Shown here: one piece after another, positions 718 to 28,561 of the stretch
How the letters are laid out: every line of letters begins with the position of its first letter
Position numbering within the stretch: the stretch's first letter is position 1
Source: Polyangiaceae bacterium
GTDB lineage: Bacteria; Myxococcota_A; Polyangia; Nannocystales; Nannocystaceae
Length of the DNA stretch: 36,154 bases
Direction: 5' to 3'
Assembly (NCBI GenBank): GCA_026989935.1
Contig: JALSIN010000471.1
Span: 1-36,154 of the forward strand
Made by a program: the position numbers and the translations under genes
The notes under the pieces: generated by a model
What the model was told of the DNA's origin: nothing
The model's database searches: none
Seen by the model: the letters and a program-made list of their open reading frames with translations, nothing else

Positions 718-1344
718 CTACCCTTCCGGCAGGAGGGTCCAGCGCAGGGTGTAGGCGAGGGGGATCGGGGCGTTCGGGTCGAGGTGGGTGACCGTCAGGC
801 GGTAGGTTCCGGCCGGCAGGCGGCGGTGGATCGGGTTGAAGGCCCGCGCGGTGGCGTCGCCCGCGGCGGCCAGGACCGTGCCGGCCGCGTCCTCCAGGGT
901 CAGGTGCAACGTGCCGGGGGCGGTCGCCTGGCCGTCGGCCGCCAGGGGGCGGACCGCGTCCACCCCGACGTAGCCGGGGGCGTCGAGGATCACCCACACG
1001 TGGTCCACGTCGCCGGCACACAGGGTGCGCGACTCGACGGCGCCGTCGTCGGCGAACCCGACCGCCGGGGCCGACGCCGGATCGTCGTCGGGCTCGAAGG
1101 GGTCCGGCAGGCACGGGTCGAGGCCGCCGCCGCCCGTCGTGCCGGCGGTCGCCGTGCCCGCGGTCGCCGTGGTCCCCGCGGTCGCGGCGCCCCCGGTGGT
1201 GGCCGTGCCCGCCGTGCCGCCCCCGCCGCCGCCGTCGGGGCAGGCGGCGAGCAGCGCGGCGAGGGCCGCGGTCGCACACGGCGGCACGAGGCGGCGGGCG
1301 CGAGGCGGCGGTTCGGGATGGGGGGGCATCGGGGATGGCCTCAT
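718..1344 (-). CDS. PPC-like domain lipoprotein
   Basis: This 208-residue protein is predicted to be exported and lipid-anchored. An Arg-containing N-terminus and a short hydrophobic run lead to a textbook lipobox, LLAAC, with the acceptor Cys at about residue 35. A Gly/Thr/Ala linker (about 37-70) then leads to a beta-rich domain with the pattern of bacterial pre-peptidase C-terminal (PPC) domains: FEPDDDPASA at its start, an AGDVDHVWV strand, TLHLTLEDAAGTVLA, and a closing LPAGTYRLTVTH. PPC domains usually form the C-terminal tail of secreted proteases. Here the domain is a separate protein encoded last in an operon with a secreted metalloprotease, so a role in that protease's surface retention or substrate contact is an inference. 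The ATG at 1344 overlaps the previous gene's stop as ATGA. The frame stays open further upstream, but only inside that gene. Confidence 0.8.
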   Translation of the reverse strand: MRPSPMPPHPEPPPRARRLVPPCATAALAALLAACPDGGGGGGTAGTATTGGAATAGTTATAGTATAGTTGGGGLDPCLPDPFEPDDDPASAPAVGFADDGAVESRTLCAGDVDHVWVILDAPGYVGVDAVRPLAADGQATAPGTLHLTLEDAAGTVLAAAGDATARAFNPIHRRLPAGTYRLTVTHLDPNAPIPLAYTLRWTLLPEG

Positions 1345-1958
1345 GGTTGGGTGCAGCAGCAACTGACGACCTCGACGACGATGTCGTCCGCCGGCGGCGG
1401 CAGCGGGCCCCAGGGGATCGGCTCGGCGCACTCGGCGACGGCCATGACGTTCCCCGCATTCTGTTGACACTGGTACATGTCATCACGCCGGAAGGTGCCC
1501 CGCTGGGAACAGGGGTAGGTCTCCGGCGGGTCGTTCTTGCGCTCGACGCACTGCTCGCCGAGGCTGGCGCAGTACTCGTCGCAGGTCTGGAAGCCGTCCT
1601 CCGGGCGCAGGCAGCCGAAATAGGATGCCTCGCACCGGCCGCTCTTGCAGTAACCGGCCGTGTTGTAGCGCACGCACACGTGCCCACAGGCGCCGCAGTT
1701 GTCGTAGTCGGAGAGCAGGTTCACGCACTGGCCGTCGCAGACGTCGGGGTCGTCCGGCGGGCACTCGAGGGGGCCGGTCGTGCTCGTGGCGCCGAGGGTG
1801 CCGGCCTGGGTGCTGCCCGAACCGCCCGTGGCGCCGCCCGAGCCCTCCGACGTCCCCGCGTCGTCCGGCTGGGCCCGCCGCGTCACGCACTCGCACCGCA
1901 CGCCCGCCAGCAGCGCCAGCGCCAGGACCCCGGGCGCCCACCGCCTCGGGCCCGTCAT
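1341..1958 (-). CDS. Cys-rich exported protein
   Basis: This is a 205-residue exported protein of unknown function. The N-terminus (PRRWAPGVLALALLAGVRC) is a clear signal sequence, but the residues before Cys22 (GVR) do not form a good lipobox, so soluble secretion is as likely as lipidation. A Gly/Ser/Thr linker (about 35-62) is followed by a dense Cys-rich region. This includes CVNLLSDYDNCGACGHVC (about 78-95), a pattern widespread in myxobacterial secreted proteins, presumably a disulphide-bonded repeat. The chain ends in an unusual CCC cluster (200-202). It is the middle gene of a three-gene unit. Its ATG overlaps the upstream protease stop as ATGA (1955-1958) and its own stop overlaps the next start (1341-1344), which implies translational coupling and a shared role. 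Confidence 0.8.
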   Translation of the reverse strand: MTGPRRWAPGVLALALLAGVRCECVTRRAQPDDAGTSEGSGGATGGSGSTQAGTLGATSTTGPLECPPDDPDVCDGQCVNLLSDYDNCGACGHVCVRYNTAGYCKSGRCEASYFGCLRPEDGFQTCDEYCASLGEQCVERKNDPPETYPCSQRGTFRRDDMYQCQQNAGNVMAVAECAEPIPWGPLPPPADDIVVEVVSCCCTQP

Positions 1959-3352
1959 TGCGCCACCCCCATCTGCGGTCCCAGCGTCAGCGCCGCCAAC
2001 CATGCCTGCGGGGACCGGGCCTGGAGCTTCGACAGGAACGCCAACCAGTAGCTGCAGTCGTCCGGCGCCTGCCAAAGCCCCACGTCCGACAGCAGGTACA
2101 GCAGTTCGCCCGGCTCGATGGCCCCCGTCGCGTGCAGCCGCCACAGGAAGTTCGCCCAGTCCAGCTCCACCGCCACGCCCCGCCGGCAGGGCAGCATCCC
2201 CGGAAGCTGGGGGCACGTGCGAACGTCCGCGCCGTCCCCGGGGCAGTACATGGCCTCGTGGACGCTCACCATCGTCACGGTGGGCGAGCAGTCGGGCGAG
2301 ACGGCCGACTCGGTCCCCTGGCACAGGTCGAACATTCCGTTGCCGCCGTCGGCGCGGCCGAAGACCGCCGTGGGCTCGTCCTCGCGGTTCCAGGCCAGGT
2401 ACGTGACGTAGTGGGCAAACCCCTCCGCGGTCGCCGTGGCCTGCCACTCGCGGCTGTAGATCTTGTGGTCGCCCTGGCCCGGGGGCTGGTTGAAGCCATA
2501 GTCCAGCGTCGGTGTGAACCCGGCGGGTAGCTGCATCGTCAGCAGGTGCCCCAGCTCGTGGGAGACCGTGGCCTTCGCGTGCTCGTTGTTCTGTGCGAAC
2601 AGGGGGTTGCCCTGGCCGTCCGTGCAGCCGGTGGAGCGGTTCTGGAATTCCACCGTGGGGCGCCCGCCGAAGATGTGGCTGGCGCGGGTGCCCCGGCGGA
2701 AGCAGCCGTTCTCCGGCGCGCGCGGCGGCCAGTACACGCCGTAGAGGGCCTGCCCGGCGTCCGTGGCCGGCACGGACGCCTGGGCCGCGAGGGCGTGCGT
2801 GCGCTGGAGGGTGAAGGCCATGCCGTACGCGAGGGCGTGGGCTCGGTTGGGAAGTTCGATCACCCACGCAAGGGTGCCGTCGGGGGCCTCCAGGAGGTCC
2901 TCGACCATCGCCATGTCGCGCCGGAGGCCGCACTGGGTGAAGTCGAAGGGCTCGTCTCCCGGCCCGCCGGAATCGCAGTCGTAAACGACCAGGTCGGTGC
3001 CGGTGTCGTCGTAGTGGTGCCAGGAGACGGAGCGGACGAGCGCGACGCCGGTGCCCTCGTCGAACCACGGCGTGCAGCCGTCGGCGCCGAGGGGGCGCCA
3101 GCCGAACAGGGCGTCGCCCGCCGCATCCTCGACCCGGACGAGAAGGTTGCCCAGGGCGAAGGGAAAGGGGTCGTCCGTGCGGCCGAAGTCCTCGCCGATG
3201 TCGAGGACCTCCCCGGCGGCGACGCCGCCGCCGAGCCCCCCGATGTCCCGCACGGAGGCATCCCAGAGCATCTCGGCCAGATCCGCGCGGATGCACACGC
3301 GCCGCTGGGCTCCGAGGACCGTCCCGGGCACGAGCACGAGCACGACGGTCAT
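1955..3352 (-). CDS. Secreted HELGH zinc metalloprotease
   Basis: This 465-residue putative zinc metalloprotease is secreted or periplasmic. The N-terminus TVVLVLVPGTVLGA looks like a short signal peptide cleaved after the alanine near residue 15. The zinc-binding motif is HELGH at 265-269 (two His ligands and a catalytic Glu). A plausible third ligand is Glu310 in TAEGFAHYV, 41 residues after the last His, as in gluzincin-type peptidases with a downstream EGxAxY helix. The many Cys residues fit an oxidised, extracellular protein. The N-terminal 200 residues match no family I recognise. It is the first gene of a unit with two further exported proteins, each start overlapping the previous stop. 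Possible -10 elements (TACGCT, TATTTA) lie 27-50 bases upstream but are weak. Substrate unknown. Confidence 0.82.
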   Translation of the reverse strand: MTVVLVLVPGTVLGAQRRVCIRADLAEMLWDASVRDIGGLGGGVAAGEVLDIGEDFGRTDDPFPFALGNLLVRVEDAAGDALFGWRPLGADGCTPWFDEGTGVALVRSVSWHHYDDTGTDLVVYDCDSGGPGDEPFDFTQCGLRRDMAMVEDLLEAPDGTLAWVIELPNRAHALAYGMAFTLQRTHALAAQASVPATDAGQALYGVYWPPRAPENGCFRRGTRASHIFGGRPTVEFQNRSTGCTDGQGNPLFAQNNEHAKATVSHELGHLLTMQLPAGFTPTLDYGFNQPPGQGDHKIYSREWQATATAEGFAHYVTYLAWNREDEPTAVFGRADGGNGMFDLCQGTESAVSPDCSPTVTMVSVHEAMYCPGDGADVRTCPQLPGMLPCRRGVAVELDWANFLWRLHATGAIEPGELLYLLSDVGLWQAPDDCSYWLAFLSKLQARSPQAWLAALTLGPQMGVAQ

Positions 3353-3894: not shown

Positions 3895-5370
3895 TCACCG
3901 GGCGGAGGGCGGCGAGGCGAGGCACAGGTCGGCCACGGCTTCCCCCACCGCGGCGAGGAACGGCCGCGTGCGGCGATCGTAGTCGTAGCGGTCGTCGTTG
4001 AGCACGCCGTCGCGGTTGCCGTAGATCGAGACGGTGACGGCGGCGGTCCGCGCCTCGTGTCGCACCACGGCGTTTTCGACGTGGAACCCGTAGGCCCGGC
4101 CGGCCTTGTTCGTGTAGACGACCGGCGCGCCCGGCAGACGCCGCGCGATCCCCGGCAGCATGGGCTTGAAGGCCGCCGCGCCGCGGTGCGGCGGGGGATA
4201 GGCCGGGTCGGGCGAGGCGTTGGGATCCTCGGTCATGGCCGCGACCAGGCGTGCCCGCAGGTCCTCGTCGATGCCGGTCTCCACCAGATCCAGCGCCGGC
4301 ACGGCGCGCAGGTCGGGGCGGACGATGGACAGCAACAACCGGTGGTGATCGACGAGGCTGGCGTAGTTCTTGTGGGAAAAATCCATGGGGGCCGCCACGC
4401 GCCGCTTCGTCTCGGGGTCGATGTGGGCCCGTCCCACGGTCGTGGTCTCGAACGGCAGGGGCGGCGGGTCGAGGGCGCTCGTGCGCTTCGGGAGGTGCAG
4501 GGCATCGGGCGGGACACCCACCCGAAACCCCGGGCTCGTACGCTGGACCCGGGGCGGGGCCCAGGAGAACATCCGGTGGTGCACGCGCAGGGAGCCGAGC
4601 CCGCGGTCCCAGGCGTAGCGGTGCAGAGCCTCGTGCCCCACCAGATCGTACAGGAGGTTGTAGGCCACGTTGTCCGAGACGAGGTGGACGCGGCGCACCA
4701 GGTGCCCGACGGTGGCCACCTTTGCGTGGGGCGGCAGGCGGTTCGACGGATCCTCGATGGGGCGGCAGCGCCCCGCGTCGTCGCAGGCCGCGATCGGGCT
4801 GTCCCAGCCGAGGTCCGGGTGGGCGGCCCGCTCGGACGAGACCATGGCGAGGGCCGCGGCGGTCACGAACAGCTTGATCGCGCTGGCGGGGTAGACCAGC
4901 TCGGCGCCGGCGCGGTACCGGGCCGTGCGGATCGACGGGGCCGGGCCCCGTTCGTCGAGGCAGGTGATCACGAGCTGGAACCGGGCCTCGTGCGGGTCGG
5001 CCAGGACGTCCGGGAAGCGGCGACCAAGGGCGGCGAGCATCGGCGCGAGGTCGAACGGCTCGACCGTCGCCGCGGCCTCGGCCGCGGGACCCGGGGCCGG
5101 GCCCTTCGGTCGCGCCGTCTTTCCAGGTGGTTCCTCCATACGTGGAGGTTCGGCCGGCGACGCCACCCGCCTCGGCGCGGGAGCGGCCTCGCCTTCGATC
5201 CCGGTGGCCGCGCCGGCCGCCGGCGTCGCGGGTGGGGTGGGGCGGCACGAAAGCAACGCGAGCACGGCGGCGGCCGCCCGGCCCGTCGCGTGGCCCGTGG
5301 CCCCACGGGGGGCGGCGCGGCCCGCCCCGTCCCGTCCCGAACCGCCCCGAGGCGACGTGCGGCCGGTCAC
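3895..5370 (-). CDS. Beta-lactamase-fold serine hydrolase lipoprotein
   Basis: This 491-residue protein has the three active-site boxes of the class A beta-lactamase / penicillin-binding fold: Ser-x-x-Lys in PASAIKLF (Ser163, Lys166), the SDN triad at 232-234 (VSDNVAYN), and a third box TNKAG at 420-424, where Ala replaces the usual Thr of KTG. The SDN-to-KTG distance of about 188 residues is longer than in typical class A enzymes (about 100), so a peptidoglycan-directed or unknown hydrolase is as likely as a lactamase. An Arg-rich leader ends in LALLSC (Cys42), indicating an outer-membrane lipoprotein. About 80 Pro/Ala-rich residues then form a spacer. The start is the GTG at 5370, whose GTGA overlaps the upstream gene's stop; the frame is open further upstream but lies within that gene. 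Confidence 0.82.
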   Translation of the reverse strand: MTGRTSPRGGSGRDGAGRAAPRGATGHATGRAAAAVLALLSCRPTPPATPAAGAATGIEGEAAPAPRRVASPAEPPRMEEPPGKTARPKGPAPGPAAEAAATVEPFDLAPMLAALGRRFPDVLADPHEARFQLVITCLDERGPAPSIRTARYRAGAELVYPASAIKLFVTAAALAMVSSERAAHPDLGWDSPIAACDDAGRCRPIEDPSNRLPPHAKVATVGHLVRRVHLVSDNVAYNLLYDLVGHEALHRYAWDRGLGSLRVHHRMFSWAPPRVQRTSPGFRVGVPPDALHLPKRTSALDPPPLPFETTTVGRAHIDPETKRRVAAPMDFSHKNYASLVDHHRLLLSIVRPDLRAVPALDLVETGIDEDLRARLVAAMTEDPNASPDPAYPPPHRGAAAFKPMLPGIARRLPGAPVVYTNKAGRAYGFHVENAVVRHEARTAAVTVSIYGNRDGVLNDDRYDYDRRTRPFLAAVGEAVADLCLASPPSAR

Positions 5371-26481: not shown

Positions 26482-27664
<1,183 letters not shown>

Positions 27665-27666
<2 letters not shown>

Positions 27667-27670
27667 GAGG
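27665..27670 (+). promoter_or_regulatory. Strong ribosome binding site for mreC
   Basis: AGGAGG overlaps the mreB stop codon and lies six bases before the GTG at 27677, supporting that start. Confidence 0.7.
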
Positions 27671-27676
27671 GGCGCC

Positions 27677-28561
27677 GTGGCTGCGTCCTGGCGATCCGCG
27701 AAAGACGCCGCCATCGTGGCCGGCTTGTTGCTGATCCCGGTGGCCTTGCTCGTGTCCTTCGTGCGCGGACCCGAGCGGCTCGGCCCGTTCGACCGTGCCG
27801 TGCGCCGGATCGTCGTGCCCCTCGAAGCGGGGGTGTCCTATGCCACCCGGATGGTGGGGGCGTTCTTCGAGCGCTGGATCCTGCAGGCGCGGTTGCAGGA
27901 AGAAAACGCCGTGCTACGCGGGCAGGTGCGGGACCTCGAGCGCATGGTGCGACGGCTCCGATCCCTGGCCGACGAGAACGAGGAGCTTCGCCGTGCGTTG
28001 CAGATGCGGGAGAAGGCCGCGGACGACCTGCTCGTGGCCGAGCGGGTGGGGGTGGAGCAGTCCCCGCACTTTCGTGTGATCGGCGTGCGCATCGACCGCG
28101 GCCGGGGCCAGGTTCGGCCCGACATGCCCGTCATCGCCCCGGACGGGGTCGTCGGGCGCATCGACCGCACCTACGACGACTACAGCGAGGTCATGCTGAT
28201 CACCGACCCCCGCAGCCGCGTCGCGGTGGAACTGCCCCGGACGCGGGCCCAGGGGATCCTCGTCGGCGCGGGCGAGGACCTGTGCGAGGTGGAAGTACCC
28301 GAGGAGTTCGACGTGCGCGCGGGGGATCTGGTGCAGACCAGCGGCGTGGACGACATCTTTCCGAAGGGGCAGCCCATCGGGGCGGTTCGCTCCATCGAGG
28401 CGCGGCCCGACGGGACGAAGCGACTCATGGTGACACCGTTCGTCGCGTTCGACCGGTTGTTCGTGATGTGGGTGGTGCTCGCCCCGGCGCCCCGCCCGGA
28501 TCCGAAGGCCGAGCGGCCCCCACAGATCCCGCCGGCCAGCGGCCTCGCCCCGGCGCGCTAG
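27677..28561 (+). CDS. mreC: Rod shape-determining protein MreC
   Basis: This 294-residue bitopic membrane protein has an N-terminal helix (about 15-33), a coiled coil (about 65-115; QARLQEENAVLRGQVRDLER) and the periplasmic double beta-barrel domain with VIAPDGVVGRID, LITDPRSRVAVELP and GDLVQTSGVDDIFPKGQPIG. MreC activates PBP2 and links the cytoskeleton to the cell-wall enzymes. The GTG start is preceded by AGGAGG. A Pro-rich tail ends the chain. The gap to mreD is 16 bases. Confidence 0.94.
   Translation: MAASWRSAKDAAIVAGLLLIPVALLVSFVRGPERLGPFDRAVRRIVVPLEAGVSYATRMVGAFFERWILQARLQEENAVLRGQVRDLERMVRRLRSLADENEELRRALQMREKAADDLLVAERVGVEQSPHFRVIGVRIDRGRGQVRPDMPVIAPDGVVGRIDRTYDDYSEVMLITDPRSRVAVELPRTRAQGILVGAGEDLCEVEVPEEFDVRAGDLVQTSGVDDIFPKGQPIGAVRSIEARPDGTKRLMVTPFVAFDRLFVMWVVLAPAPRPDPKAERPPQIPPASGLAPAR

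Follow-up and report, generated by a model that had tools for sequence, protein, structure and literature searches.

PPC and similar binding domains are familiar as parts fused to secreted proteases, and the usual layout of the PPC domain is a C-terminal fusion to the secreted peptidase. The locus studied here places a protease, a Cys-rich exported protein and a PPC-like lipoprotein in three separate overlapping genes, which raises the question of whether the three products work as one cell-attached protease. The locus lies at one end of the stretch of DNA that we analysed (hereafter the window), 36,154 bases with 71.6% G+C from contig C471 of a 4.47-Mb draft genome. Relatives of this genome are Nannocystaceae-type myxobacteria, and the source bacterium is a relative of predatory myxobacteria. 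Genomes placed in the family of the window include Enhygromyxa salina SWB007 (G016), Paraliomyxa miuraensis SMH-27-4 (G009) and the MAG 8_bin.71, a "Polyangia bacterium" (G004); in the NCBI taxonomy, Enhygromyxa stands in Nannocystaceae and Paraliomyxa is incertae sedis.

All three genes are on the minus strand. P1 (1955..3352, -) encodes a predicted exported HExxH metalloprotease, gluzincin-like, of 465 aa, with HELGH at residues 265-269 and the conserved E302 and E310 (AEGFAHY). P2 (1341..1958, -) encodes a Cys-rich exported protein of 205 aa with 20 Cys, composed of a STIG1-like half and a C-terminal domain ending CCCTQP, and P3 (718..1344, -) a predicted lipoprotein of 208 aa with a lipobox at Cys35, a linker (~38-75) and a PPC domain (~78-208). 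The stop of P1 and the start of P2 share an ATGA (1955..1958, -) that is identical in Enhygromyxa and Paraliomyxa; the stop of P2 and the start of P3 share another (1341..1344, -), identical in Enhygromyxa and replaced by a 90-bp gap in Paraliomyxa. An earlier sequence-only reading had described a run of three cistrons (protease, Cys-rich exported protein, lipoprotein) linked by two ATGA overlaps, and the ORF coordinates bear this out. P1, P2 and P3 are all real genes, as each aligns in frame over its length with homologues of other genera. Directly downstream of P3 (159-601) we observed a GC-rich repeat block, in which a 160-base unit occurs twice (92% alike, 283 apart) beside shorter copies of 65-75 bases. 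Upstream of P1, the next gene on this strand encodes a beta-lactamase-family protein (3898-5214, -; PF13354, E 6e-12), and the ~545 bases between the two genes indicate that they probably belong to separate operons.

An HExxH motif with a downstream Glu is the mark of zinc peptidases, and this gluzincin-type combination is found in the P1 family. The stretch SREWQATATAEGFAHY follows HELGH by ~30 residues in P1, and we take E310 (EGFA, as in M1) to be the third zinc ligand. Downstream of HExxH, an SxE...E pattern was observed in 32 of 35 P1-type catalytic domains, a set whose rows were picked for having HExxH. The N-terminus of P1 (MTVVLVLV) is without the usual basic n-region, unlike that of its orthologues. 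Single-protein searches of Pfam, NCBIfam and PDB sequences returned no family for P1 or P3, and with relatives tried as well, P1 reached no Pfam or NCBIfam family above cut-off. The sole Pfam match of the window P1 was DUF6055 (PF19527), a likeness over the HExxH region that scores below the family cut-off (E 0.1, 12 bits against 27); DUF6055 was matched by one of six P1 relatives (best E 0.1), and the gathering cut-off was not reached. The AlphaFold model of P1 has a pLDDT of 42.9, which makes it unusable, and its Foldseek fold matches (best E 1.1 from this low-confidence model) were rejected. A single-protein scan of the genome contigs with the P1 sequence gave no match, and the P1 relatives in the contigs were found with an alignment as the query; the P1 sequence matches 6 of 59 genomes, its own included.

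P3 carries a good lipobox match (LAALLAAC, with Cys35), consistent with lipidation of the protein, followed by a low-complexity linker rich in Gly, Thr and Ala and then by a globular domain. A direct Pfam scan of the window P3 gave no match, and the same scan of eight P3 relatives found PPC in one (E 0.05). When a profile of the eight relatives (A5) was searched against PDB sequences, the best match was the collagen-binding domain of ColG (E 4e-9), with a further match to the Bacillus PPC domain 5sv5 (E 0.001). CheY matches obtained with the single P3 sequence (E 0.17 and worse) were dismissed as chance. The predicted model of P3 has a whole-chain pLDDT of 69.0, with ten-residue blocks at 75-90 over residues 81-208 (one block at 58) and values below 50 for residues 45-74. 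Foldseek ranked 5sv5 first for the predicted domain (E 4e-5). With VIA-align, the five best matches of the model were ColG and ColH collagen-binding domains (Z 12.0-12.8, rmsd 2.1-2.2, 103-107 residues aligned), led by ColG 5iku (Z 12.8, rmsd 2.1, 105 aligned), compared with Z 10-11 for other beta-sandwich domains. Matches to enterotoxin, SID1, p24 GOLD and PliG reflect a general beta-sandwich likeness and are not taken as relatives. Profile and predicted fold, a beta-sandwich of the PPC/collagen-binding type, thus confirm the P3 domain as a PPC domain (PF04151). The last protein had been called PPC-like, and the profile search proposed for it assigned PPC and no other fold. P3-type PPC domains are not fused to the C-terminus of a secreted peptidase: in the window, G004, G009, G011 and G016 they have a lipoprotein gene of their own, and in the G016 fusions described below they precede the protease.

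The signal of the window P2 ends LLAGVRC and has no canonical lipobox, while a lipobox is present, as read by eye from the sequences, in the P2 homologues of Enhygromyxa and G011. The homologues align with P2 over the full length. P2 and its three homologues (4/4) matched NF041328 at E up to 1, which likens them to MXAN_6577-like Cys-rich proteins; the match of the window P2 (E 2e-12) is below the curated cut-off (47.1 bits against 100), and its best stretch stops at residue 156, leaving outside the C-terminal part that ends CCCTQ. PF04885 also matched P2 below cut-off (E 8e-4). P2-type domains occur, in addition, in many lipoproteins distant from P1.

The sequence-only reading had suggested searching for the three-gene order in other myxobacteria, and we found it in two further genera. 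In E. salina (G016:C26), a protease in two overlapping frames is followed by P2 and P3, with ATGA at both junctions; in P. miuraensis (G009:C30), the order is protease, P2 (ATGA) and P3 (90-bp gap). Of the family's 29 genomes, only three, these two and that of the window, were seen to have the full triplet. P2 is missing from G004:C24, where the gene of a PPC lipoprotein overlaps that of the protease. In G011:C25, P2 and P3 were seen with no adjoining protease, and G001, the second genome in the window's genus, contains just a distant P1 relative. E. salina also carries fusions in which PPC comes first and the protease second: G016:C26 and G016:C56 each hold an intact single lipoprotein chain (615 and 633 aa), and in a third copy (G016:C3) the layout is broken by a frame change. 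The PPC branch of the protease family thus occurs in both states, as a split operon and as a single-chain fusion. Two breaks were noted in E. salina: the protease gene at L018 16149-14750 lies in two frames whose ends overlap, and a two-frame break falls inside a PPC-protease fusion at L020 8766-10606. Sequencing error, decay or real splitting may account for these broken frames.

Because alignments A3-A5 contain members that they recover, clean tests of the partnership were those with only the fused domains as query. We built a profile of the three fused PPC domains, with signal and linker left out, and compared it with the 1868 ORFs of the loci. It recovered only its own three rows and four separate P3 proteins, from G004 (E 7e-8), the window (2e-7), G011 (9e-5) and G016 (3e-4); the P3 of G009 was not reached among these ORFs. 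Against 317 genomes of the class, the fused-domain alignment gave matches in 53, and the non-self matches within the family were the window P3, the G004 P3 and one large G005 protein. The first two both adjoin P1. Viewed from the protease side, the seven places scoring >100 bits with the protease profile, five of which are rows of that profile, all have PPC, three as a fusion and four elsewhere in the gene cluster. These seven PPC-associated proteases form one clade (98/99) in a tree of the 35 catalytic domains. The natural fusions strongly support, on the level of sequence, P1 and P3 being partners. Neither a lack of conserved gene order nor an assignment of the last protein to another fold, either of which would have spoken against the sequence-only reading, was observed, and its interpretation is plausible. 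Of the lipoprotein-tethered, multi-subunit protease that had been proposed for the locus, the P1/P3 pairing gains support from the fusions, whereas the strict triplet proved rare.

Downstream of distant P1 relatives in the family, we repeatedly saw that a lipoprotein gene overlaps the protease stop or abuts it. Coupling was scored automatically wherever an ORF with a lipobox began at -60 to +15 bases relative to the protease stop, for family proteases that had been picked by protease similarity and not by neighbour. From 26 family genes, G026:C1 (no ORF passed the filter) and G017:C790 (contig end) were dropped beforehand; the remaining 24 include the three fused E. salina paralogues and the HExxH-less fragment G009:C34. 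A coupled lipoprotein followed 16 of these 24 proteases, while for the background, the other genes called at these loci, the figure was 5 of 224 (P 2e-15). The background number is approximate because a home-made codon-usage gene caller was run on those loci, with a lipobox rule that is also home-made. Against exported-looking genes only (3/88 coupled), the excess was kept (P 6e-11), also after collapsing the fused E. salina paralogues (14/22; P 9e-10). An earlier, stricter lipobox detector with a looser distance (-70 to +60) had given 7 of 15 family genes and 10 of 203 background genes. Eight of the 24 proteases had no coupled lipoprotein by the automatic rule; the P2-P3 pair of the window, G025 and G009:C112 were missed by the rule and counted as coupled by eye only. 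Of 19 loci from the other families of the class, 17 were examined (two were without ORF), and 8 of the 17 P1 relatives had a coupled lipoprotein; the background counts cover the window's family.

The coupled partners are of unrelated types. Mutually homologous receptor-L-domain/LRR lipoproteins follow the proteases of G023, G014, G025, G009:C112 and G005:C55 in the window's family (Pfam on the first four; L017 9419-10645, L163 903-2057, L161 3459-4397, L058 510-1388 and L052 2327-2734). The Cys-rich P2 type is the partner in the window, in G016 and twice in G009, PPC in G004, and a Cys-rich type of 274-280 aa lies downstream of the fused E. salina genes. Elsewhere in the class, outside the window's family, FGE-sulfatase-domain (SUMF1-like) lipoproteins were found in G219, G211, G209 and G120 (by Pfam) and in G220 (by similarity), at L076 2206-2904, L084 2206-3357, L086 170-1306, L093 157-1230 and L080 2457-3287; the remaining cases are single others. 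Partner type tracks the protease tree, with 12 changes compared with 21.5 in shuffles. The family-wide pattern is thus a protease together with any of several lipoprotein types. We tentatively propose, at somewhat less than even confidence, that Polyangia possess a modular surface-protease system, in which each member of one exported HExxH family is translationally coupled to a lipoprotein receptor and the binding domain (PPC, Cys-rich, receptor-L/LRR or FGE-type) has been replaced time and again, which would dock one enzyme chassis on the cell and aim it at different targets.

The best reading of these data is that the gluzincin-like protease is exported and docks on a coupled, exchangeable lipoprotein, which aims it. 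P1 would be a zinc metalloprotease (type HExxH...E) that is exported in soluble form, and P3 would be a lipoprotein whose flexible linker carries the PPC (collagen-binding-domain-like) domain. P3 would hold P1 at the outer membrane and bring it to its substrate or to a matrix, as the fused PPC does in collagenases. The disulphide-rich P2, probably a lipoprotein in at least some relatives, may act as a third binding or bridging subunit, and the ATGA coupling may fix the subunit proportions. In Enhygromyxa, PPC and protease would be held in one lipidated chain, and across Polyangia the protease family would have remained coupled to a lipoprotein while the binding domain was swapped over evolution. 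A PPC-tethered protease is the simplest reading because the E. salina fusions unite lipid anchor, PPC and protease, although gene coupling does not prove a complex. That P1, P2 and P3 form one functional unit, with the protease tethered and aimed by the PPC lipoprotein and P2 as third subunit, we judge to be evenly balanced.

Other explanations fit part of these observations. The genes could form an ordinary operon, in which independent exported proteins share their regulation, in the service of feeding or matrix turnover, and build no complex; the loci are indeed rich in lipoprotein genes, P2-type domains occur in many unrelated lipoproteins, and the partner types are diverse. Fusion of the P3 domain to P1, the retention of PPC by 7 of 7 close P1 relatives and a coupling far above background, exported-looking genes included, all speak against this explanation, which we consider rather unlikely. 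Proteases paired with inhibitors, and enzymes paired with foldases, are likewise tightly coupled to a partner of their own. On this view the coupled lipoprotein (P3, or P2 and P3) would be a periplasmic or outer-membrane inhibitor, an immunity protein or a folding helper, which keeps the protease harmless or aids its folding during export and provides no tether, and the partners do vary between protease clades and track the protease tree as specific inhibitors would. In E. salina, however, PPC and protease are one chain, and the PPC, receptor-L/LRR and FGE-type domains have the folds of binding or scaffold modules, with no known protease-inhibitor family among the matches; we regard such a helper or inhibitor as unlikely.

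Far less probable, in our view, is that P1 is a pseudoprotease or non-proteolytic adhesin whose HExxH fold serves binding, the whole unit being an adhesion complex. P1 matches no family of tested activity above cut-off, and in Paraliomyxa a protease fragment that lacks the HExxH part (G009:C34; L125 7005-8222) keeps a P2-type Cys-rich lipoprotein as its neighbour. Against this, the presence of SxE...E in 32 of the 35 HExxH-bearing relatives argues for a kept zinc site.

Among known systems, the clostridial and Bacillus collagenases ColG and ColH combine an HExxH metalloprotease with a PPC-fold binding domain, as P1 and P3 do between them, and their collagen-binding domains are the best fold matches of the predicted P3 model. 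In ColG and ColH the PPC domain is C-terminal, whereas here it forms a lipoprotein of its own or precedes the protease in a lipidated fusion. P1, in addition, matches no peptidase family of Pfam above cut-off, and the likeness is one of fold that does not imply a collagen ligand. As far as titles and abstract openings describe them, the collagen-binding C-terminal segment of the Grimontia collagenase contains a PPC domain (PMC6168687), and collagenase PPC domains bind matrix (PMC6168687, PMC4356367). SslE/YghJ of E. coli is presented in the same kind of source as a lipid-anchored extracellular metalloprotease (PMC5012682, PMC5790219); it differs in being a single polypeptide with an M60-like domain from a different bacterial group, and those descriptions mention no split PPC lipoprotein partner. 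The sequence-only reading knew of no described system of this kind, and we likewise found, in titles and abstract beginnings, no description of a split protease and PPC-lipoprotein system.

The three-gene arrangement is real and conserved, and apparently undescribed. What is new is that, across the family, the protease is coupled to exchangeable lipoproteins. That the parts are kept together in relatives, and sometimes fused, suggests one cell-attached protease. With related bacteria showing either state, fused or split, a separately encoded lipid-anchored PPC subunit offers a natural test of how proteases are tethered and aimed. If the wider pattern is true, these myxobacteria would retain one protease chassis and exchange its lipoprotein receptors; this would account for part of their large stock of unassigned lipoproteins and provide a design rule for cell-attached proteases. 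Elsewhere in the window, the genes for MreB and MreC adjoin each other (26635-28558, +) in the usual cell-shape cluster.
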